Shown here one piece after another: positions 17,817 to 32,522 of a stretch of DNA of 32,655 bases. Positions within the stretch are counted from its first letter, which is position 1. Every line of letters begins with the position of its first letter. The translations under genes were made by a program, and so were the position numbers. Location of the stretch: positions 1-32,655 of the forward strand of contig CAIPFY010000026.1 in assembly GCA_903864435.1 (NCBI GenBank). The letters run 5' to 3'. This DNA is from an uncultured Chloroflexota bacterium. GTDB lineage: Bacteria; Chloroflexota; Anaerolineae; Aggregatilineales; Phototrophicaceae. The notes under the pieces were generated by a model, which did no database searches, was not told the origin of the DNA, and was given only the letters and a program-made list of their open reading frames with translations.

Positions 17817-19928
17817 TTGCTGACCAAACTCGTATCTATGGTAGACACAATGCCGCTGCGCAGGCTGCGACAACTCTGGCGATCCCTCACTGAACCCTCG
17901 CAATCGCTGACCAACCCGCGTGATCGCCGCCTCGCTTATGCGCTTGCGGCTGCGCTGCTGCTGTTTTTAACCATCGGGATGTTCCTGATCGGTCTGGGCG
18001 TTCTGTTCCCCTTGCAGATGGGGGAAATCCGTCAGGTCGCGCCAGCGGTACAACTCGTGCTGTTCGTGGGCTATTGCTTCAGCCGAACGCGCTTTTATCG
18101 CGTGGGGACGGTGCTGAGTCTGCTGGTTTCTCGCATCGCGTGTATGACGCTGGCGTTGCAGAACCCCGCGCTCATTTTGTTGGTGACGTTTATCCCGATC
18201 ACAACCATGCTGTCCGGGTTTGTGCTGGATATCCCTATCCTGATAGGGGTCACGATCACCGATGTGGTGGGCATTCTGGTACTCACTTTTGCGATTCACC
18301 TCCTGCCCGTATCCAGCGGGTTGTTAATGCTGCTGCTGATCGTGCTGTCGGTCATCCTGTCGCTGGGGGCGGCGATGGTACGTCAGCGCGAATTGAACCG
18401 GCTGCGTCAGCAAGCGCAGTACCTCCGCGAGAGTGAATCCCGTTTCCGTTTGATGGCCGATACCGCGCCGGTCATGATCTGGACAGCGAATGCCAACCGG
18501 GAATACGATTATTTCAACTTGAGCTGGCTGCAATTCACCGGACGATCTTTGAATGACGAGATTAGCAGCGAACGGGTGGACGGGATTTACCCGGAGGAGC
18601 AGCCGAAATACTGGGTGACGTTCATTTCCGCGTTCACCGAACGCGAGCCGTATCAGATGACGTATCGCCAGAAGCGGCAGGACGGGGAGTACCGCTGGTT
18701 GCTGGAGAAAGGTTCCCCCCGTTTTCTGGAGGACGGAACGTTCATCGGGTATATCGGTTCGTGTATTGATATTACCGACTGGATTCGTGCCGAGCAATCT
18801 GCTGCCGAGGGTGAACGGCGTTACCGTTCTTTGTTCGAGCAATCCGGCGATGCGATCTTGATACTCGATCTGGACACGCGCATCGTGGCGATTAACGAGC
18901 TGGGGCTTCTCCAATTTGGTTATCGCCGCGAAGAATTGATCGGACGAAGTGCCACCCAGTTCTTTTCCGAGATGGATACTATTCCCGCTGTGACAAGATG
19001 GGATGACCTGCTGGCGGGTAAGGATATTCCCACGTATACGCGCCTGCTGCGCCGTAAAGATGGCACGGACTGCTATACCGAGATTAAATTGTCATTGATT
19101 CGGGCGCTGGATGGTTCCCTGCTGTATGTGCAGAGCATTTTGCGCGATGTAACTCAGCGCCGCCGCTATGAGCAGGAACATCTGGAACTACTCAAGCAGA
19201 ATACCCGTGTGGAAGTGCTGCGCCAGTTTGTGAGCGATGTGTCTCATGATTTGCGTACCCCCCTTAGCATCATCAACACCAGCAGTTATCTGGCACGCCG
19301 CAAGCTGGAAAACGTGGATGTGCCAGAGAAGGTGATGGGGTATTTGAAGATGATTGACACCCAGACGCAGCATTTGTCGCGGATGGTGGATGATATGCTG
19401 AATATCTCGTATCTGGACAGCGAGAATGCTGCCTTTCAGATGCAACCGGCTAACTTGGCTGAAATTGCCCGTAACCTTGTGGACGAGGTGAAAGCCTCGG
19501 ACAGCATGGGCCACAAAGCCATTGAATTTTCGGCTGAACCCGAATCGGTGACGGTGCAGGGGAATGCCACGCAGCTTTCGCGGGCTATTCAGGGCGTGCT
19601 GATGAATGCGGTGCAGTATACGTCCGATGAGGGGCAGATTCAGGTGCGGGTGAGCGTTGCGGATGGCCTAGCGCGGGTGGATATTCAGGACAACGGGATT
19701 GGCATTCACGCCAAAGACCTTCCACATATTTTTGACCATTTCTACCGGAGCGACAGCGCCCGCCCGGTCAAGACGGGCGGGGCAGGCGTTGGGCTGACGA
19801 TTTCGCGCAAGATCATCGAAATGCACGGCGGGCAGATCACCGTCGAAAGTCAACCGGGCGTGGGTAGCACGTTTCATCTGCTGCTCCCGCTGCGGCAGGT
19901 TTTTGCCAACGCCATTCTGGCAGATTAG
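17817..19928 (+). CDS. Membrane sensor histidine kinase, PAS-PAS-HisKA-HATPase
   Basis: The 703-residue protein has about six membrane helices (41-187). Two PAS domains follow (about 205-325, with F-R-L-M-A-D-T-A-P-V-M-I-W, and 335-455, with Y-R-S-L-F-E-Q-S-G-D-A-I), then the dimerisation domain with phospho-accepting H477 in SHDLRTP. The ATP-binding domain has LMNAVQY as N-box, D625-N-G-I-G as G1, and G-G-A-G-V-G-L as G2. All key catalytic residues are present. The best start is TTG at 17817, with AGGATTAGG before it; ATG at 17838 lacks a ribosome site. No response regulator gene adjoins it. Its stop overlaps that of the convergent lipocalin-like gene by 4 bases. Confidence 0.92.
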   Translation: MLTKLVSMVDTMPLRRLRQLWRSLTEPSQSLTNPRDRRLAYALAAALLLFLTIGMFLIGLGVLFPLQMGEIRQVAPAVQLVLFVGYCFSRTRFYRVGTVLSLLVSRIACMTLALQNPALILLVTFIPITTMLSGFVLDIPILIGVTITDVVGILVLTFAIHLLPVSSGLLMLLLIVLSVILSLGAAMVRQRELNRLRQQAQYLRESESRFRLMADTAPVMIWTANANREYDYFNLSWLQFTGRSLNDEISSERVDGIYPEEQPKYWVTFISAFTEREPYQMTYRQKRQDGEYRWLLEKGSPRFLEDGTFIGYIGSCIDITDWIRAEQSAAEGERRYRSLFEQSGDAILILDLDTRIVAINELGLLQFGYRREELIGRSATQFFSEMDTIPAVTRWDDLLAGKDIPTYTRLLRRKDGTDCYTEIKLSLIRALDGSLLYVQSILRDVTQRRRYEQEHLELLKQNTRVEVLRQFVSDVSHDLRTPLSIINTSSYLARRKLENVDVPEKVMGYLKMIDTQTQHLSRMVDDMLNISYLDSENAAFQMQPANLAEIARNLVDEVKASDSMGHKAIEFSAEPESVTVQGNATQLSRAIQGVLMNAVQYTSDEGQIQVRVSVADGLARVDIQDNGIGIHAKDLPHIFDHFYRSDSARPVKTGGAGVGLTISRKIIEMHGGQITVESQPGVGSTFHLLLPLRQVFANAILAD

Positions 19929-24461: not shown

Positions 24462-26213
24462 ATGAGTACCCTACTTCACACACACAAACGCGCCGCCCTG
24501 CTGCTGGCGGCGCTGGCGTTACTCGGCGGCTTGTTGGCGCTCGATCTCGTCAGTCATGGCGCGGCATGGCAACTGTTCTGGTCGCTGACAGGCGAGGAAG
24601 AACCCCTCAGCCAGATGCGCGGCATGGTCGAATGGGCGGGGAACGCCCTGCGCCCGCCGCCCGTCACCCGCCCGGATGTGCCGATTGCTCATGCGGACGT
24701 GCCGCCCTACGGCATCAACACCTTCTTGCAGCAAGAAGTGGAAATCGTCAAACGCGAACGCTCCCTGCAAATGATTGCGGATGCTGGCTTTACCATGATC
24801 CGGCAGCAGTTCCCGTGGGCGGACATCGAGATTCACGGGCGCGGGGATTTTGAAGATCGGCGCAACGATCTGAATGGCGACGGCACGAAAGACGCGATCA
24901 GCGCGTGGGACAAGTACGACAACATCGTAGACTTGGCGGAAAGCTACGGCATTCAGATTCAGGCGCGGCTGGATAACCCGCCGACATGGACACGCGCCAA
25001 CCCCGACAGCGGCGATTTTGCCCCGCCCGACGACGTGCAGGATTTCGTGAACTACGCCGCGACAGTGGCAGAACGCTACAAAGGGCGCATCCGCTACTAT
25101 CAAATCTGGAACGAGCCGAACATCTACCCCGAATGGGGCAACGCGCCCGTCAATCCCGAAGCCTATACCGACCTGCTGTGCCGCACCTACACCGCGCTGA
25201 AAGCGGTTGACCCGAACATCGTGGTTATCAGCGGGCCGCTGTCGCCCACTGTGTCGCTCACAGACCACAACTTGAACGATTTCATCTTCCTCCAGCGCAT
25301 GTATGACGCGGGGGCGGGGGCGTGCTTCGATGTGATGTCGGCGCAGGGCTACGGCTTCTTCAGCGGCCCAACCGATCGCCGCTTGCGCCCGATGACGCTG
25401 ACCTATGCCCGCCACCTGTACATCCGCGATGTGATGGTCGCCAACGGGGACGCGGGCAAGGCCATCTGGATAAGCGAGGCGGCGTGGAATCCGCAACCGG
25501 AAGACCCGTCTATCGTCACCTCGCAGTACGGCAACTTCGGCATCGTCAGCGAGGAGCAGGCGGCGCGGTATATGCCGCTGGCCTATCAACGGGCGCAGGA
25601 AGAATGGCCATGGCTGGGCAACATTAGCTACTGGTTCTTCAAACGCGCCGCCGATTATGAGCGCAATCAGGCATTCTACTACTTCCGCATGGTCGAGCCG
25701 GATTTCACACCGCTGCCCGTGTACGACAGTATGAAAACCTACATCACGCAGCAGCAGCCGGTGTTGTATGCCGGTGTGCATCAGGCCGAACACTGGGCGG
25801 TGAGCTATCCGCAGGGGCAAACGTTGGTCGAAGCGCCCGGTGCGGAGTTCGGGACGGCTGTCGAAACGCTTGAGGCCTCGTTCCGCGCTTACGGCACCGA
25901 AGTGATTCTGCGCTGGCGCGAGGGCGGCGACGCGCTCTCGGTGCAGGTAGACGGGCAGAATACGTTGGCGGGTGGTCATTGTACGCATGAACTGGCGGCG
26001 GACGAGTGGCATGTCACGGTGCTGTGTTCGGCACTGCTGCCCGGTGAGCATACCTTCCACATCGTCCCCGCCACCGGACGACTGATGCGGCTGGATTCGA
26101 TCACCGTCCTCAACCGCAGCTACGAGAACCTTGTGCCGTATGGGGCGTTGGCGGCGGCGCTGCTGACGCTGGTGCTGCTGGCGCTGCGCGACATCCTGCG
26201 GGGGCGGCGATGA
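24462..26213 (+). CDS. Membrane-anchored GH-A clan glycoside-hydrolase-like protein
   Basis: The 583-residue protein has an N-terminal signal anchor (11-28), a TIM-barrel of the GH-A clan and a C-terminal membrane helix (about 558-576) with a basic tail. The acid/base Glu is E218 in IWNEPN. The nucleophile is very likely E339 in WISEAAWN. D-I-E-I-H and Q-I-Q-A-R-L-D-N-P-P-T-W are barrel strands. It resembles family 39/5-type enzymes, but the exact GH family is not clear. Between barrel and helix is a beta-rich domain (about 440-545). It probably trims or builds a cell-surface glycan. The start is set by the promoter geometry and by the hydrophobic N-terminus. Confidence 0.83.
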   Translation: MSTLLHTHKRAALLLAALALLGGLLALDLVSHGAAWQLFWSLTGEEEPLSQMRGMVEWAGNALRPPPVTRPDVPIAHADVPPYGINTFLQQEVEIVKRERSLQMIADAGFTMIRQQFPWADIEIHGRGDFEDRRNDLNGDGTKDAISAWDKYDNIVDLAESYGIQIQARLDNPPTWTRANPDSGDFAPPDDVQDFVNYAATVAERYKGRIRYYQIWNEPNIYPEWGNAPVNPEAYTDLLCRTYTALKAVDPNIVVISGPLSPTVSLTDHNLNDFIFLQRMYDAGAGACFDVMSAQGYGFFSGPTDRRLRPMTLTYARHLYIRDVMVANGDAGKAIWISEAAWNPQPEDPSIVTSQYGNFGIVSEEQAARYMPLAYQRAQEEWPWLGNISYWFFKRAADYERNQAFYYFRMVEPDFTPLPVYDSMKTYITQQQPVLYAGVHQAEHWAVSYPQGQTLVEAPGAEFGTAVETLEASFRAYGTEVILRWREGGDALSVQVDGQNTLAGGHCTHELAADEWHVTVLCSALLPGEHTFHIVPATGRLMRLDSITVLNRSYENLVPYGALAAALLTLVLLALRDILRGRR

Positions 26214-26222
26214 GGGAGACAC

Positions 26223-26407
26223 ATGCCCTCACCCCCAACCCCTCTTCCTCAGGGCGAGGGGGGGATAAGACCAACAAATGCGTCTTTCACCCCTCTCCAA
26301 AGCGGTACTCCGCGTGTTGGAGAGGGGACGGGGGTGAGGTTCTTCTCCCTCAGGGCAAGGGGCGCGAAAGCGAAGGCATTCGTAGGGACACGGCGCGAGG
26401 AGTGTCC
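26223..26407. repeat. Composite G/C-rich repeat between two envelope genes
   Basis: The stretch fills almost the whole 250-base gap. It has three blocks: a C-rich/G-rich hairpin (CCCTCA...CAGGGCGAGGGG, about 26227-26265), a long palindrome with inner GCGG-TACT-CCGC (about 26288-26325, the reverse of the core at 22461-22495), and a CTCCCTCAGGGCAAGGGG block leading to GTAGGGACACGGC (26383-26395), which is shared with the repeat at 9640-9718. No gene is carried; open frames here are repeat translations. Confidence 0.78.
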
Positions 26408-26463
26408 ACCGGCTGCCTGTCGCGGTCATTCCATTCTTTGTATACCCCACCAAGAGGTCGGCT

Positions 26464-28530
26464 ATGGATAGCGTAAGCGGCGGCGCGGCGAAGTGGGTGG
26501 CGCTGTGGCTGATTGTGGCGCTGCTGTTGCTGGCGGGTGCGCTGCGGTTGCATCAGATCGGGGCGCAATCCTTCTGGAACGACGAGGGAAATTCGCTGGC
26601 GCAAGCTCGCCGCGATCCGGTGGCGATTGCCGAAAATGCCGCCCGTGATATTCATCCCCCCGGCTACTACTGGCTGCTGGCGGCGTGGCGCAATCTGGTG
26701 GGCGAGAGCGAGGTGGCGCTGCGTTCGCTGTCGGCGCTGGTCAGCCTGCTCACGGTGGCGCTGGCCTACAGTGTGGGGCGGCGGTTGTTCAATCCGGCGG
26801 CGGGATTGGCGGCGGCTTTCTTCACCGCCCTGAATACCTTTAGCCTCTATTACGCGCAGGAAGCCCGCATGTACGCGCTGCTGGGGCTGTGGGCGGCTTT
26901 GAGCGCGTGGGCGCTGGTGGGGCTGCTGCGCGGCGGCGGTTGGAAAACCGTGCTGCTGCTGGCGCTGGTGAACGCGGCGGGGCTATACACGCAGTATGCC
27001 TATCCGTTCGTGATGCTGGCACAGGGCGCGGCGCTGCTGCTAGGGGTTTTGCTGCCCTCGCCCACACCCCTAGCGCCTCCGCATTCGCGTCAGGGCGAGG
27101 AGGAGAAACCCTCACCCCTCACCCCTCTCCCTCAGGGCGAGGGGAAAAGAGTCCCCTATCCCCCAACCCCTTTCCCCATACATGGGGCAAGGGGAGCGAA
27201 CGCGAACGCATTTGCGCCTTCCCGGTTGCGGGTGCTGGTGGCGTTTGTGCTGGCGAACGGGCTGGCGCTGCTGCTGTTCGCGCCGCTGCTGCCCACCGCG
27301 TTGCGACAGGTGACTCAGTGGCCTAGCACGGGTGCGCCTGTGGCGGCGGGTGAGGCGTTGGCGACCATCAGCGGTTGGCTGACGTTCGGCCTCGCGTATG
27401 GCAGCATCGAAAACAGCGCCGGATTCATCCCGATCATCCTGCTCATTTTGAGCGCGGGGGCGCTGCTGTGGCTGCTGCGCGGGCGGGGGATGGTATGGCG
27501 GTTGGGATTGTTGCTGCTGTGGGTGGTGGTTCCGGTGGGACTATTTTTGTTGCTCGGCCTGTTTCGTCCCGCCAACCTGAAGTTTTTGCTGCCTGCACAG
27601 TTCGGGCTGGCGTTGTGGATGGGCGCGGGCTGGGGCGGTTGGTGGCAGGCGGCGCGGCGCGGCGGGCGCACGGATCGGTTGACGCTGGTGTTCGCGCTGC
27701 TGCAAGCGGCATGGTTGATCGTGTATTTCGCGGCGGGCGTTCCGGCATTGTATACCGACGCGCAGTACCAGCGTTCCGATTACCGGGCGATGGCTGCCCG
27801 TATCAGCGCCGACTCGCGCCCCGGTGATGTCATCATCCTGAACGCGCCCAACCAGCGCGAAGTGTTCGACACCTACTATCACGGCGATGCGCCCGTGTTT
27901 GGCTTGCCGGAAGGGTTGGGCGGTGACGACGTGGCGACGCTGGCGGCGGTGCGCCAGATCGTCACGGATTATGACCGCATTTTCGTGCTGTACTGGGGCG
28001 ATAGCGAACGCGACCCGAACCATGTGGTTGAATCCACGCTGGATGCCGAGGCGTTCGCGGCGGGGGATGATGTGTGGTATGGCGAGGTGCGCTTCGCCCG
28101 TTATGCTGCGCCGGCCACGATGCAGGCGGCGGTGGCGGCCAACGCGCCTTTTGGCGACTCGATCTGGCTGGAACACTATGCCCTGAGTGGTCGTTCAGTG
28201 CAGGCGGGGGACGTGCTGCAAATCGAACTGCAATGGCGCACCGACGCGCCGTTGACCACGCCGTACAAGGTGTTCGTGCAACTGCTCAATGCCGGCGGTG
28301 TGCTGGTGGCACAGCGCGACAGCGAACCGGGCGGCGGGTCGTTGCCCACGACAGTGTGGCCGACGGGCGAAACGCTCTTTGATCGGCACGGCCTTGCTAT
28401 CCCCGCCGATTTGCCCGCCGGGGATTACCTGCTCATCCTCGGCCTGTACAACCGTGACAACGCGGGCGAACGGCTGCCTACCCGCGCCGGACACGACTAT
28501 CTGGAACTGGGGTTGGTGACTGTGCGCTAA
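26464..28530 (+). CDS. GT39-like membrane glycosyltransferase with a repeat-derived insert
   Basis: The 688-residue protein has about 10-12 membrane helices and a C-terminal soluble beta-sandwich-like domain (about 555-688). The first loop holds W39-N-D40-E41, the place of the catalytic Asp in PMT/ArnT-type glycosyltransferases that use polyprenyl-phosphate sugars. H-P-P-G-Y-Y-W further on is also family-like. It should glycosylate a protein or lipid outside the membrane. Residues about 198-252 (27055-27219) are a translated repeat of low complexity (S-P-T-P, P-L-P-Q-G-E-G), set between two helices without breaking the frame. AAGAGG before the ATG supports the start. Confidence 0.85.
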   Translation: MDSVSGGAAKWVALWLIVALLLLAGALRLHQIGAQSFWNDEGNSLAQARRDPVAIAENAARDIHPPGYYWLLAAWRNLVGESEVALRSLSALVSLLTVALAYSVGRRLFNPAAGLAAAFFTALNTFSLYYAQEARMYALLGLWAALSAWALVGLLRGGGWKTVLLLALVNAAGLYTQYAYPFVMLAQGAALLLGVLLPSPTPLAPPHSRQGEEEKPSPLTPLPQGEGKRVPYPPTPFPIHGARGANANAFAPSRLRVLVAFVLANGLALLLFAPLLPTALRQVTQWPSTGAPVAAGEALATISGWLTFGLAYGSIENSAGFIPIILLILSAGALLWLLRGRGMVWRLGLLLLWVVVPVGLFLLLGLFRPANLKFLLPAQFGLALWMGAGWGGWWQAARRGGRTDRLTLVFALLQAAWLIVYFAAGVPALYTDAQYQRSDYRAMAARISADSRPGDVIILNAPNQREVFDTYYHGDAPVFGLPEGLGGDDVATLAAVRQIVTDYDRIFVLYWGDSERDPNHVVESTLDAEAFAAGDDVWYGEVRFARYAAPATMQAAVAANAPFGDSIWLEHYALSGRSVQAGDVLQIELQWRTDAPLTTPYKVFVQLLNAGGVLVAQRDSEPGGGSLPTTVWPTGETLFDRHGLAIPADLPAGDYLLILGLYNRDNAGERLPTRAGHDYLELGLVTVR
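27055..27219. repeat. In-frame copy of the G/C-rich repeat inside the GT39-like gene
   Basis: The 165-base stretch (55 codons) has the same blocks as the intergenic copies: CCCTCACCCC and CTCAGGGCGAGGGG, then AGAGTCCCC, a CCCCA-TACA-TGGGG hairpin (27174-27187) as at 16435-16449, and a GCGAA-rich end followed by GCATT as at 26364-26382. It is translated as a Pro/Gly-rich loop. Confidence 0.8.
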
Positions 28531-28668: not shown

Positions 28669-30504
28669 GTGTGGCAGTTTTCGATGTTTTCAGCAATCCT
28701 GTGGGTTACTGCATTCGTCTCATGCGGGGCGGCGTATGGGGCATGGAAGCAGCGGCATACCCGCGCTGCAAGTGCGCTGGCGGGGCTGTTGGCTTCCAAC
28801 GGCTTGTGGGCATTCACCGAGGTGATGCGCATTTCCTCCACTGACCCGCTCGCTCAGATGCGCTGGTTGCAAGCGGAATGGATCCCCGTTCTTTTATCCC
28901 CGTTACTGTGGTTTGTGTTCGTCTTCACGCTCATCGGGTATGGTCGCTGGTTCAGGCAGCGTCGTGCGCTGCTGCTGCTCATTCAACCGCTGGTGGTCTA
29001 TGCGCTGGTGCTGACGAACGATTACCACCATCTCATCTGGTCGGGGACGCGCTTGGTCGAGGTGATGGGGTATCGCATCTATTATGCGGAACACGGCCCC
29101 CTTTATAACCTGATTGTCTATTACCTGTATGCTCTGCTGCTGGCGGCGCTGTTCCTGCTCGCCCGGACAATCTGGCATGTGTACGGGCTGGTGCGTCGTC
29201 AGTACGCGCTGGTGCTGTTCGGCGGATTGCTCCCGATTATTGGCAACATCATCAGTCTGGAAGACCCGCTGTTCCAGTTTCTGGATGTCACCGTGATGAT
29301 GTTCCTGATTTCCGGTCTGATGTATCTGTGGGCGATCTTTGGCATGAAGCTGTTTGAAATCGTCCCCATTGCTCGTAATACCGTGATTGATAACCTGCCG
29401 GATGGCATGATCGTGGTAGATCGGATGCAGCATTTGGCGGATGTGACCCCCGCCGCCTTTCGCTTCTTGAACGAGTCGGATCGCTCCAAACTGGTCGGGA
29501 AGCCAATTCAGGACACGTTGCCCGTGTGGTTGCAGCAAATGTGGACTCTCTACCCGGTGGCTACACCCCTGAAGCAGACTGTGAAAGCGGAGGTAGATGG
29601 CAAACCGGGTTTTGTGGCGATTCGGTTTGACCCGATTTATCGTGATGGGGAAGATGAACCGGCGGGATGGGTGCTTGGCCTGCATGATGTGACGCTGGAA
29701 CAGCAAGCGGCTGCCGAGCGCGAACAACTGCGCGAACGCGAACTGGGTATGCGGCTTGAGAAAGAGCGTGGTCGGCTGCTGCGGCATTTCATACAGGATG
29801 CCGCGCAGGAGTTTCATGCGCTGCTGGTCACGATGATGACCCGCGCTAACAATTTGGAAATGTCTGAAAATGTGGCCAGCGGGCGGCACGATGCGCAATC
29901 TATTCAGACACAGGTCACGCGCACGATTATGCTGGTGGATATGCTGCTGAAGATCGTCAACCTCGAAGGCGGGCAAAGTGGCGAACTCTCAACCGTGAGT
30001 ATAGATATGCTGCTGCACGGACTGTGCGAGAAAATCTCCAGCGAAACCGCAACCATGCCCATTTTGGACTGGGTACACCCTTTGGAACCGTTGCGGGTGA
30101 TGGGCAACGCCGACCACCTTGCCGAAGCCATCCAGCAAATCTTGAGTAATGCGTATGACTTCACACCGCCGGACGGCGTGGTTACGGTGCGGGCGCAGGC
30201 AGAAGGCAAGGCTGTCGTGGTGACTGTGCAGGATACCGGCGCGGGTATCGCGGAGCAAGACCTCCCGCATATTTTTGAAGCGTTCTGGCGGCAAAATCGG
30301 AACCCGGATTCGCTGCATTTCGGGATGGGGTTGGCGGTGGCTCACAAGATCATTGCGTATCACGGGGGACGCATCGAAGTGCAAAGCCACATCGGGCAGG
30401 GCAGCCGCTTTCGCATCGTGCTACCGCGCTACGAGTTGCTGTCCATCGCTCCCCATGTGCCACATGAAAGCAGCGCACGCCCCTCGCCGGACGGGGCGGC
30501 CTGA
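28669..30504 (+). CDS. 7TM-PAS sensor kinase homologue lacking the phospho-accepting histidine
   Basis: The 611-residue protein has a 7TM histidine-kinase N-terminal region (about 1-230) and a PAS domain (about 240-345) introduced by I-V-P-I-A-R-N-T-V. A short helix (345-372), a dimerisation domain and an ATP-binding domain follow. N494, D522-T-G-A-G-I and the G2 box F-G-M-G-L-A-V are intact. The H-box, however, reads A-A-Q380-E-F-H-A-L-L where the paralogue at 30708 reads A-A-H-E-F-R-T-P-L. The accepting His is therefore Gln, and the following T-P is lost. It can bind ATP but probably cannot be phosphorylated itself. The GTG start at 28669 is supported by alignment of W-Q-x-S-x-F-S-x-I-L-W-V-T with the paralogue. 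Confidence 0.9.
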   Translation: MWQFSMFSAILWVTAFVSCGAAYGAWKQRHTRAASALAGLLASNGLWAFTEVMRISSTDPLAQMRWLQAEWIPVLLSPLLWFVFVFTLIGYGRWFRQRRALLLLIQPLVVYALVLTNDYHHLIWSGTRLVEVMGYRIYYAEHGPLYNLIVYYLYALLLAALFLLARTIWHVYGLVRRQYALVLFGGLLPIIGNIISLEDPLFQFLDVTVMMFLISGLMYLWAIFGMKLFEIVPIARNTVIDNLPDGMIVVDRMQHLADVTPAAFRFLNESDRSKLVGKPIQDTLPVWLQQMWTLYPVATPLKQTVKAEVDGKPGFVAIRFDPIYRDGEDEPAGWVLGLHDVTLEQQAAAEREQLRERELGMRLEKERGRLLRHFIQDAAQEFHALLVTMMTRANNLEMSENVASGRHDAQSIQTQVTRTIMLVDMLLKIVNLEGGQSGELSTVSIDMLLHGLCEKISSETATMPILDWVHPLEPLRVMGNADHLAEAIQQILSNAYDFTPPDGVVTVRAQAEGKAVVVTVQDTGAGIAEQDLPHIFEAFWRQNRNPDSLHFGMGLAVAHKIIAYHGGRIEVQSHIGQGSRFRIVLPRYELLSIAPHVPHESSARPSPDGAA

Positions 30505-30563
30505 ACATGAGAGAACGGCCTTTTCCTGCGAAACAGTTTCATTCTTGAAATTTTATGGTGAAT

Positions 30564-30586
30564 ACGTTAATCATTATCATTAACGT
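30564..30586. promoter_or_regulatory. Inverted repeat upstream of the second 7TM kinase
   Basis: ACGTTAAT (30564-30571) and ATTAACGT (30579-30586) are perfect 8-base arms around a 7-base centre. TATAGA at 30591-30596 lies directly downstream and could be a -10. The region between the kinases is A/T-richer than its surroundings. It is probably an operator. Confidence 0.5.
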
Positions 30587-30614
30587 CGGTTATAGATCAG
30601 CATTTTTCTCAAGA

Positions 30615-30626
30615 ACCTCATGAGGT
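30615..30626. promoter_or_regulatory. 12-base perfect palindrome
   Basis: ACCTCATGAGGT is its own reverse complement. It lies about 80 bases before the second 7TM kinase, in its probable 5' leader. A DNA- or RNA-level site is possible. Confidence 0.35.
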
Positions 30627-30707
30627 ACGCACGAAAGAGACTCTGTAGCTCATGGCATGTGGCGTTGCATCGCACCCTGACCGCACTCACCTGATTGGAC
30701 GCACCTG

Positions 30708-32522
30708 ATGACATGGCAGATTTCCATTTTTTCGATCATTCTCTGGGTCACAAGCCTCTTGTCATGGGCGGGCGCGTTCGTGGCGTGGCGGCGCTTGCAC
30801 ACCCGCGCTTCGCTGGCACTGGTTAGCCTGATGTGTTTTGCCGGCTTGTGGTCTTTCGCGCAGGGGACGCGCATTGCCGCTGTGGATTACGATTGGCAGA
30901 TTGCGTGGTTGTACGTTCAGTGGTTGGCGATCACCTTCACGCCAACGGTATGGTGCATCTTCATCCTGATTTTCATCGGTTACGAAAGCAAGGTTTTACG
31001 CCGCCTTTGGCTATTCTTTATTCCATCGGTGATCCTATATGGTTTGGTTCTAGCCAACGATCATCTGCAATTCATTTGGAAGGGGATTGAAGCCTACAAC
31101 ATCTCTGGCTTGCTGGCTTATCGAACCGTTCGCGGGAACGGTTTTGGCCTGACCGTTCTGTATTTTTACGTCATCATTGGGCTGTGTCTCATCGCGCTCA
31201 TTCGTACCATCCTGCACTCGAACGGGGTGGCGCGCCAGCAATTGATACTGGTGTTGATCGGCTTGCTCGCGCCGCTGGTCGGCAACATCTTGCAGGTTGC
31301 CAGTGTCACATCCAAGCTGTTCGACATCACGCCGTTGTTGCTCATCGTGTCCAGCATTATTTATCTGTGGGCGATGTTGGGGCTGAGACTGCTGGAAATT
31401 ATCCCTATCGCTCGCAATACGGTGGTAGAAAATTTGCAGGATGGGGTGATCGTGGTGGATCGCACCCAGCGAGTTGTGGATATGAACCCCAGCGCCTTCC
31501 GTTTTCTCAGCCCCCAATGGTCGAAATCCACGTTGATCGGACAACCCATTCAGACGGCACTGCCTGCGTGGATGCAGGTGATGTGGACGTTGATGGATAC
31601 GCCGACCCGCTTGAAGCAGACGGTTGAAGGGGAGGTGAGTGGGAAACCGGGGTTTATCGCCTTGCAACTGTCGCCGATTTACCAGAATCGCAGCCTCGAA
31701 TTTACGGGGTGGGCGCTGATGCTGCACGATGTCACGCTGGAGCAGCAGGCGCAGGCCGAACGTGAACGATTGCGGGAACAGGCGCAGGCCGAACATGAGC
31801 GCCTGCGGGAACAAGAGATGGAGATCAAACTGGAAAAAGAGCGTATTCATTTGCTCTCGCAGTTTATTCAGAACGCCGCCCATGAGTTTCGCACGCCGCT
31901 GACCGCCATCCGTTCCAGCGCGGAGTTGATTGACCGCGTGAACGATCTGGAACGCGCCCGTAAGAAAGCGCGGATGATTCAAGAGCAAGTGCAGCGCACA
32001 ACGCGCTTGGTGGATATGCTGCTGAAAATGGCGAGTTTCGACGGGATGCAGACCGCACCTTTCATGAGGACGGATGTCGTCGAACTCGTCGAAAGTGTTT
32101 GCCAGCAGATGCGAACGCGCTACGGCGAGTCGCCGGTGCTGCACTGGACGCGCCCCGCCCACCCGCTACCTGTGATGGGGATGGCGAATCAACTGCTGGA
32201 TGCTATCGGGCAGATTGTGGACAACGCCTATCGTTTCACCCCGCCGGAGGGGGCGATCACCGTTCGCATGGTTGCCGGGGGCGGGGTGCTTCAGGTGGAG
32301 GTACAGGACAGCGGGGCAGGCATCAGCGAAGAAGACCAAGCGCATATCTTCGAGGTGTTCTGGCGGCGGGATGAAGCGCACAGCACCCCCGGTTTCGGGC
32401 TGGGGCTGCCCATCGCGCTCCGCATCGTGCAGATGCACGGGGGGCGAATCGAAGTGGAGAGTCATGTGGGGCAGGGCAGCACTTTCCGCATGGTGTTGCC
32501 GGAAAGTGGCGCATCGGCCTAG
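30708..32522 (+). CDS. 7TM-PAS sensor histidine kinase, intact
   Basis: The 604-residue paralogue of the preceding gene has the same order of parts: seven helices (about 1-230), PAS (about 240-345), a long signalling helix, dimerisation domain and ATP-binding domain. The accepting histidine is H392 in AAHEFRTPL. The N-box (V-D-N-A-Y-R-F-T), V-Q-D-S-G-A-G-I and F-G-L-G-L-P-I-A are complete, so it should be active. The helix before the dimerisation domain has an 11-residue duplication (31746-31811) that the paralogue lacks. The 203-base gap to the upstream gene carries its own likely control sites, so the two are probably not strictly one operon. No response regulator is visible up to the window edge. 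Confidence 0.93.
   Translation: MTWQISIFSIILWVTSLLSWAGAFVAWRRLHTRASLALVSLMCFAGLWSFAQGTRIAAVDYDWQIAWLYVQWLAITFTPTVWCIFILIFIGYESKVLRRLWLFFIPSVILYGLVLANDHLQFIWKGIEAYNISGLLAYRTVRGNGFGLTVLYFYVIIGLCLIALIRTILHSNGVARQQLILVLIGLLAPLVGNILQVASVTSKLFDITPLLLIVSSIIYLWAMLGLRLLEIIPIARNTVVENLQDGVIVVDRTQRVVDMNPSAFRFLSPQWSKSTLIGQPIQTALPAWMQVMWTLMDTPTRLKQTVEGEVSGKPGFIALQLSPIYQNRSLEFTGWALMLHDVTLEQQAQAERERLREQAQAEHERLREQEMEIKLEKERIHLLSQFIQNAAHEFRTPLTAIRSSAELIDRVNDLERARKKARMIQEQVQRTTRLVDMLLKMASFDGMQTAPFMRTDVVELVESVCQQMRTRYGESPVLHWTRPAHPLPVMGMANQLLDAIGQIVDNAYRFTPPEGAITVRMVAGGGVLQVEVQDSGAGISEEDQAHIFEVFWRRDEAHSTPGFGLGLPIALRIVQMHGGRIEVESHVGQGSTFRMVLPESGASA
31746..31811 (+). repeat. 33-base tandem duplication in the kinase signalling helix
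   Basis: Two adjacent 33-base copies (31746-31778 and 31779-31811) differ at only a few sites and encode Q-A-Q-A-E-R-E-R-L-R-E and Q-A-Q-A-E-H-E-R-L-R-E. The preceding paralogue has one such unit. Eleven residues make about three helical turns, so the coiled-coil phase is nearly kept. Confidence 0.85.

Follow-up and report, generated by a model that had tools for sequence, protein, structure and literature searches.

The question raised by this locus is why a membrane sensor kinase should lack the histidine on which phosphotransfer depends when the kinase encoded directly downstream of it, a paralogue of similar length, retains this residue. Crippled kinases have been described before, DivL and RetS among them, but as scattered single cases, from which the purpose of losing the acceptor is hard to tell. 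The window analysed here, i.e., the whole stretch of 32,655 nucleotides, is the contig C26 of a genome of 5.39 Mb in 464 contigs, and it reaches the end of that contig. The His-less kinase (K1) and its intact neighbour (K2) lie close to this end, and the coordinates of all of the features discussed are collected in Table 1. The observation made in an earlier note on this DNA is right and the phenomenon is larger than first noted; additionally, a role of K1 as a partner of its neighbour is supported by comparison with related sequences.

K1 and K2 exhibit 45% identity across 597 columns, and in both of them the HisKA_7TM and HATPase_c domains were found by Pfam. The H-box of K1 had been read as AAQEFHALL, with Gln380 in the place of the phospho-acceptor, and that of K2 as AAHEFRTPL, with His392, and the codons at these positions confirm both readings. 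The presence of 7TM and PAS parts in K1 was likewise claimed correctly. The protein has the HisKA_7TM architecture, in which the 7TM region is followed by PAS and the transmitter (PF16927 at 1.4e-51), and PAS models match both K1 and K2; only K2 passes the curated cut-off for PAS, the PAS of K1 falling under the Pfam cut-offs but aligning with that of K2. HisKA (PF00512) was detected in K2 at 1.8e-13, whereas for K1 Pfam did not report it up to an E value of 0.1, and no receiver domain was found in K1. All of the domains are present in a structure model of K1 (built from seven sequences; mean pLDDT 73, pTM 0.43), with the lid region at pLDDT <50. The gap between the two genes contains no terminator-like site and one weak promoter-like match; across the region there were three promoter-like matches against a mean of 2.3 in shuffles, and the promoter and terminator scan gave nothing above the shuffled sequences.

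Table 1. Positions of the features of the kinase locus in the window; the last row applies if contigs C26 and C132 are joined.
Feature	Position	Strand	Basis
K1, His-less 7TM-PAS-DHp-CA sensor kinase homologue, 611 aa	28669..30504	+	ORF, Pfam, alignment, structure model
HisKA_7TM sensor region of K1, residues 11-233	28699..29367	+	PF16927, 179.1 bits (own-genome search)
CAG codon, Gln380 of K1 replacing the phospho-acceptor His	29806..29808	+	codon read
H383 A384 L385 L386, further H-box changes of K1 (ExxT Thr and Pro gone)	29815..29826	+	alignment
HATPase_c (CA) domain of K1	30103..30429	+	PF02518, 96.9 bits
Degenerate ATP lid of K1, residues 542-550	30292..30318	+	lid scores vs relatives
CAT codon, His550 of K1 replacing the first lid glycine	30316-30318	+	codon read
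K1-K2 intergenic gap, 203 bp	30505..30707	+	sequence
K2, intact 7TM-PAS-HisKA-HATPase kinase with His392, 604 aa	30708..32522	+	ORF, Pfam
CAT codon, His392 of K2	31881..31883	+	codon read
Exact match of 141 bases to the reversed end of contig C132	32515..32655	+	sequence identity
Start of K3; end of K4 (joined C26-C132 coordinates)	32691; 36439

The stretch shared between the ends of C26 and C132 occurs nowhere else in the genome, and its length resembles the word length of an assembler. Directly beyond it, C132 continues with two further kinases, K3 and K4, on the same strand as K1 and K2. The H-box of K3 is RNAAQEFSTPL, with Gln encoded by CAG, and that of K4 is HAAHEFRTPL, with His encoded by CAC. 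Because this overlap is exact and unique, the real object is probably an array of four genes in the order Q-H-Q-H, with gaps of 203, 168, and 119 bp. All four members match PF16927 and they are the best of the seven 7TM matches in their own genome. The acceptor histidine required in HisKA kinases is lacking in K1 and K3 and present in K2 and K4, and the HisKA domain of K3 is under the cut-off (25.3 vs. 26.9 bits). No response regulator was found beside the array: C26 contains no detectable receiver domain, and the one receiver domain on C132 lies about 9 kb away from the kinases, on the opposite strand.

It had been considered that His in relatives would mark the Gln of K1 as a private mutation or an assembly error. 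Relatives do have His at this site, but the Gln is not private, as it is common to the diverged paralogue K3. A single-gene error, a private mutation and a strain artefact are all ruled out by the CAG codon of K3 at the same site on another contig and by the loss of the lid motif that is described below for both proteins. The number of two-versus-two site patterns that join K1 with K3 and K2 with K4 is 19, against 5 and 4 for the alternatives. In a tree of 16 rows, a clade consisting of K1 and K3 had a support of 99/97, and the AU test rejected the groupings K1+K2 (p 0.010), K3+K4 (p 0.005), and K1+K4 (p 0.005). In view of this clade, a single origin of the Gln before the split of K1 and K3 is the simplest account, and the residue would then have outlasted the duplication. 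The gene order would fit a duplication of a pair as a unit, although the grouping of K2 with K4 (71/61) is not firm.

The changes in K1 and K3 extend beyond the acceptor site. Among 110 His-bearing 7TM kinases, 23 columns of the DHp-CA region are at least 85% conserved, and at these columns five departures are seen in K1, three in K3, and none in K2 or K4. The losses of H380 and G550 and the mild change I557V are common to K1 and K3, while those of P385 and L553 (Met in K1) are limited to K1. The Thr of the ExxT motif is gone in K1 and kept in K3, and Glu381, next to the missing His, is kept in K1. Position 550, which is His in K1, is occupied by Gly in nearly all His-bearing relatives with an aligned residue (105/106, and 138/142 in a larger set). 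Both Gln kinases have lost this first glycine of the lid as well as the lid motif, and not one His-bearing relative (0/110 and 0/146) has a lower lid score than K1 or K3. The N-, G1-, and F-boxes of these two proteins look normal (ranks 20 to 137 of 146); for the whole CA domain, K1 ranks 3 and K3 ranks 9 of 146. The statement that the ATP-binding residues of K1 are retained thus stands for N494, D522, G524, G526, G552, and G554, but not for position 550 and the lid motif, and a fully intact ATP site in K1 is ruled out by these losses. With a complete core in which the acceptor or the ATP site is broken, K1 shows the structural trait expected of a pseudo-histidine kinase of the DivL or RetS kind.

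These results bear on two of the functions that were suggested for K1. Acceptor-dead and donor-dead kinases can complement each other in trans, and the CA domain of K1 could similarly phosphorylate His392 of K2 in a mixed dimer, where K1 would be a signal-gated donor and K2 the acceptor. Although Glu381 and the six ATP-binding residues kept in K1 speak for such a function, a donor in trans is expected to keep its lid above all, and the degenerate ATP lid in K1 and K3 makes the donation of phosphate from K1 to K2 less likely. This suggestion is therefore weakened and we consider it rather unlikely for K1, although it may hold for two of the other His-less kinases described below (those with Thr and Tyr), the lids of which are well within the normal range. 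The second suggestion was that His383 serves as an alternative acceptor, so that K1 would be an ordinary kinase, and a nearby His (H151, a few residues on) has been put forward in this manner for CCNA_03265 of Caulobacter (PMC11481889). However, position 383 is Ser in K3, Arg in K2 and K4, and His in 0/110 of the His-bearing relatives, and the ATP lid of K1 is degenerate in any case. A shifted acceptor finds no support in these comparisons and is extremely improbable.

A different possibility is that K1 and K3 are duplicates heading for loss and that the array arose incidentally from tandem duplication. Such decay would account for the further lesions of K1 (A384, L385, the lid, and M553), and searches of the 16 other genomes in the genus yielded no orthologue of either K1 or K3; the best near full-length match there has 33% identity and a cut match has 35%. 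The branch lengths for K1, K3, K2, and K4, respectively, are 0.46, 0.74, 0.60, and 0.45 in the 7TM region; 0.29, 0.47, 0.31, and 0.28 in PAS; 0.84, 0.30, 0.37, and 0.12 in DHp; and 0.66, 0.56, 0.47, and 0.32 in CA. The sensor branches of K1 resemble those of the intact partners and DHp is its fastest domain, while the 7TM and PAS regions of K3 are the fastest of the four. The fast DHp of K1 and the fast sensor domains of K3 fit a slow decay, and they count against a role of these proteins as partners. Against decay, the simplest history places the Gln before the divergence of K1 and K3, and the two frames have stayed open at a mutual identity of 48%. The dN/dS ratio (NG86) is 0.34 for K1-K3, 0.34 for K1-K2, 0.32 for K1-K4, 0.35 for K3-K4, 0.41 for K2-K3, and 0.29 for K2-K4, with dS values for the six pairs of 1.2-1.5, i.e., near saturation. 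The four genes have a similar GC content at each codon position. As the loss of His upstream of an intact kinase is also seen in three lineages (see below), we regard decay as unlikely.

The extent to which the loss of His recurs beside an intact kinase was examined with a profile (A2) made from the 7TM, PAS, and DHp regions of K1-K4, which was searched against overlapping genome sets at three taxonomic levels, namely the family (98 genomes), the order (154), and the class (396). The survey consisted of 170 loci (L039-L048, L063-L082, L113-L212, and L219-L258), including stretches from the own genome, and its sampling followed similarity to K1-K4. At the order level 40 matches were fetched, and at the class level 40 of the roughly 150 matches listed; those fetched were mainly matches reaching DHp (query position roughly >=390), so that multi-PAS 7TM proteins are under-sampled. 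A protein was called 7TM when it scored >30 bits with a custom profile, and five 7TM frames without a match to the DHp-CA model, one of which was cut by the end of its region, were left out of the count; judged by eye from their motifs, two of these are presumably GGDEF-like and two HisKA_3-like. The His column was read in 151 fetched 7TM kinases, to which K1 and K2 were added by hand. Among these sampled matches, His was kept in 147/151 of the fetched kinases, or in 148/153 with K1 and K2.

Besides K1 and K3, the kinases lacking His in this set of 153 are one with Thr (genome G031), one with Tyr (G267), and one with Arg (G377). Each of the five is followed on the same strand by a His-bearing kinase within 1200 bp, whereas any kinase at all occurs within this distance downstream in 12 of the 148 His-bearing 7TM kinases; at least 700 bp of downstream sequence was available for 134 of the 147 fetched ones. 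The p value for this linkage is 9.5e-6, or 6.6e-4 when the three lineages are each counted once, both for a criterion (any kinase downstream) that was chosen after the Tyr and Arg cases had appeared. With distances taken between stop-to-stop frames, the linkage is 5/5 vs. 9/148 at 500 bp and 4/5 vs. 8/148 at 100 bp. A stricter rule, according to which a His-less kinase stands in tandem with a 7TM paralogue, is too narrow to be general once the Tyr and Arg kinases are counted (p 0.012; 0.056 with K1 and K3 as one event). Within this sample, the adjacency of the other His-less relatives to an intact kinase suggests that the silent kinases are sensing partners. The earlier proposal of a sensory or pseudokinase partner thereby gains support of a comparative kind, both from the recurrence in the Q-H-Q-H order and from the position of all five His-less kinases upstream of an intact one.

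In G031, the stop codon of the Thr kinase overlaps a candidate start of its partner (TGATG), and the best match to this kinase in the rest of its genus has 32% identity and was already part of the survey. The Tyr and Arg kinases, both from the family f46, are orthologous to each other with 60% identity. In G267 the order is an OmpR-type regulator, then the Tyr kinase, and then a HAMP kinase. The Arg kinase of G377 also follows an OmpR-type regulator, and it is separated from the HAMP kinase by a TPR protein (L228, 4784-5983, + strand) that is missing from the G267 order; the start of this HAMP kinase lies about 1 kb from the Arg kinase, as estimated from the position of HAMP. The best match in another genome (G302), a putative orthologue with 53% identity, contains His, and no kinase was found downstream of it in the 4.3 kb examined. 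Pfam HisKA passes its cut-off in both the Tyr and Arg kinases (46.3 and 27.1 bits). The loss of the lid is not shared by these proteins (ranks of 44, 43, and 12 of 146 for the Thr, Tyr, and Arg kinases), and no N-box scores lower than that of the Arg kinase (0 of 146). As the lesions differ among the Thr, Tyr, Arg, and Gln kinases, the devices need not work alike.

Based upon these observations, we lean slightly towards the view that K1 and K3 are sensory pseudo-histidine kinases that modulate the intact K2 and K4 by contact. In such a scheme, K1 and K3 would be membrane receptors that dimerise and keep the core of the nucleotide pocket, but they could not be phosphorylated and probably could not phosphorylate. 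K1 would pair with K2 and K3 with K4, and the output of the partner would be changed by contact, most likely through shared DHp helices in a mixed dimer or a higher assembly, so that two signals may be read into one phosphorylation output. Among K1-K4, the alpha-2 helices of DHp share 56-74% identity, whereas random pairs of relatives have a median identity of 19%, with the 95th percentile at 59%; the K1-K2 value of 56% is the lowest of the array and is under this percentile. Mixed DHp bundles among K1-K4 are hence plausible, although kinship alone could explain the identity. K2 alone among the four proteins contains an insertion of 11 residues in the helical segment that links PAS to DHp, and a plain K1:K2 coiled coil would therefore be out of length; the linkers of K3 and K4 match. 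More broadly, we hold in even balance the proposition that, among the 7TM kinases of this class, the acceptor His is lost where an intact kinase follows directly downstream, and that a silent receptor joined with a working kinase is a recurrent device with at least three origins (Gln, Thr, and Tyr/Arg), which became duplicated here to give Q-H-Q-H. The array possibly builds mixed assemblies of receptors, through which several signals would converge on a single output.

A further reading of K1 derives from comparison with DivL of Caulobacter, the wiring of which leads to CckA. DivL has Tyr at the acceptor site, binds ATP weakly, shows no autokinase activity and reads DivK~P (PMC4211667). By analogy, the transmitter core of K1 could bind a response regulator, perhaps in its phosphorylated form, and relay the state of this regulator to K2, in place of a complex under the control of K1's own sensor. 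K1 resembles DivL in that it has a HisKA-type core with a replaced acceptor His (Tyr550 in DivL) and PAS input; its degenerate lid is compatible with the poor ATP binding and lack of autokinase activity of DivL, and when the sequence of K1 is matched to solved structures, the DivL entry 4q20 comes third (66.3 bits). The His-less kinases of f46 also adjoin an OmpR-type regulator. However, the DivL group is marked by a Tyr (an Ala in Magnetospirillum) in the acceptor position, a trait absent from K1 and K3, which have Gln, and unlike DivL, K1 possesses a 7TM sensor and an adjoining paralogous partner, and another pair of this kind lies next to the two. The scarcity of receiver domains on C26 and C132 noted above, the fact that the DHp of K1, which bears the docking face, is its fastest domain, and the retention of complete 7TM and PAS regions in both Gln kinases all argue against the reading of a regulator by K1, and it appears quite unlikely.

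For the contact between kinases that we favor, other known systems provide partial parallels. Rv0600c and Rv0601c of Mycobacterium tuberculosis are neighbouring genes that share the donor and acceptor roles, but each of them is half a kinase, whereas K1 and K2 are both full-length. In Pseudomonas aeruginosa, RetS, which has a degenerate ATPase, is described as inhibiting the autophosphorylation of GacS and dephosphorylating it (PMC5992135). In this network, which also includes PA1611 and LadS, a crippled kinase modulates an intact one via the kinase cores, as is proposed here for K1. The emphasis is however the reverse of that in K1, since RetS is without the G-boxes but still has HExxT and the His of the H-box, while K1 has lost the His and keeps G1 and two G2 glycines; additionally, RetS has receiver domains and K1 has none. 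The engineered H497Q form of MA4377 of Methanosarcina, which has the same substitution as K1, binds ATP and does not autophosphorylate, and RdmS and MsmS of this genus similarly combine an ATP-binding core with the lack of an acceptor (PMC11784639). Unlike K1, the H-box region of RdmS and MsmS is wholly missing and RdmS is cytosolic, and the accessible part of that paper does not describe a tandem partner. For CCNA_03265, a His-less hybrid kinase of Caulobacter, a heterodimer is named as one possibility (PMC11481889).

Pseudo-histidine kinases as a kind are thus already known. Among the open-licence PMC papers listed, no recurrent tandem of His-less and intact kinases and no alternating array of four genes came to light. 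A family in which His has been lost repeatedly beside an intact kinase, with different residues in its place, would provide natural replicates, by means of which one could ask whether partner sensing or decay lies behind the loss and how signals are integrated by mixed receptor dimers.

Kinases of other architectures that depart at the His column were also noted in the own genome. One (L074, 8673-11066, - strand; contig C108) has the H-box VSAIDFRTVM, with Ile at this column, and a His-bearing kinase is present on the same strand about 3 kb downstream of it. Another (L078, 4060-5883, - strand; contig C373) reads QAASEFRAPL, with Ser, and has a weak HATPase_c match of 24.9 bits, below the cut-off; no kinase of this type was detected beside it in the 9 kb examined, and the downstream rule thus fails for this locus, which is outside the 7TM group. 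In a HATPase_c protein with a receiver domain (L168, 1-2241, + strand; contig C431), the H-box aligns as VMSERIRVPY, with Glu at the His column. C26 itself encodes another histidine kinase, a multi-PAS protein at 17817-19928 of the window with a HisKA match over the cut-off. Lastly, stretches resembling TPLPQGEG were seen by eye at 26210-26476 and about 27050-27240, both in intergenic sequence and within a glycosyltransferase-like ORF (26464-28530), and they look like a dispersed repeat invading a coding frame.
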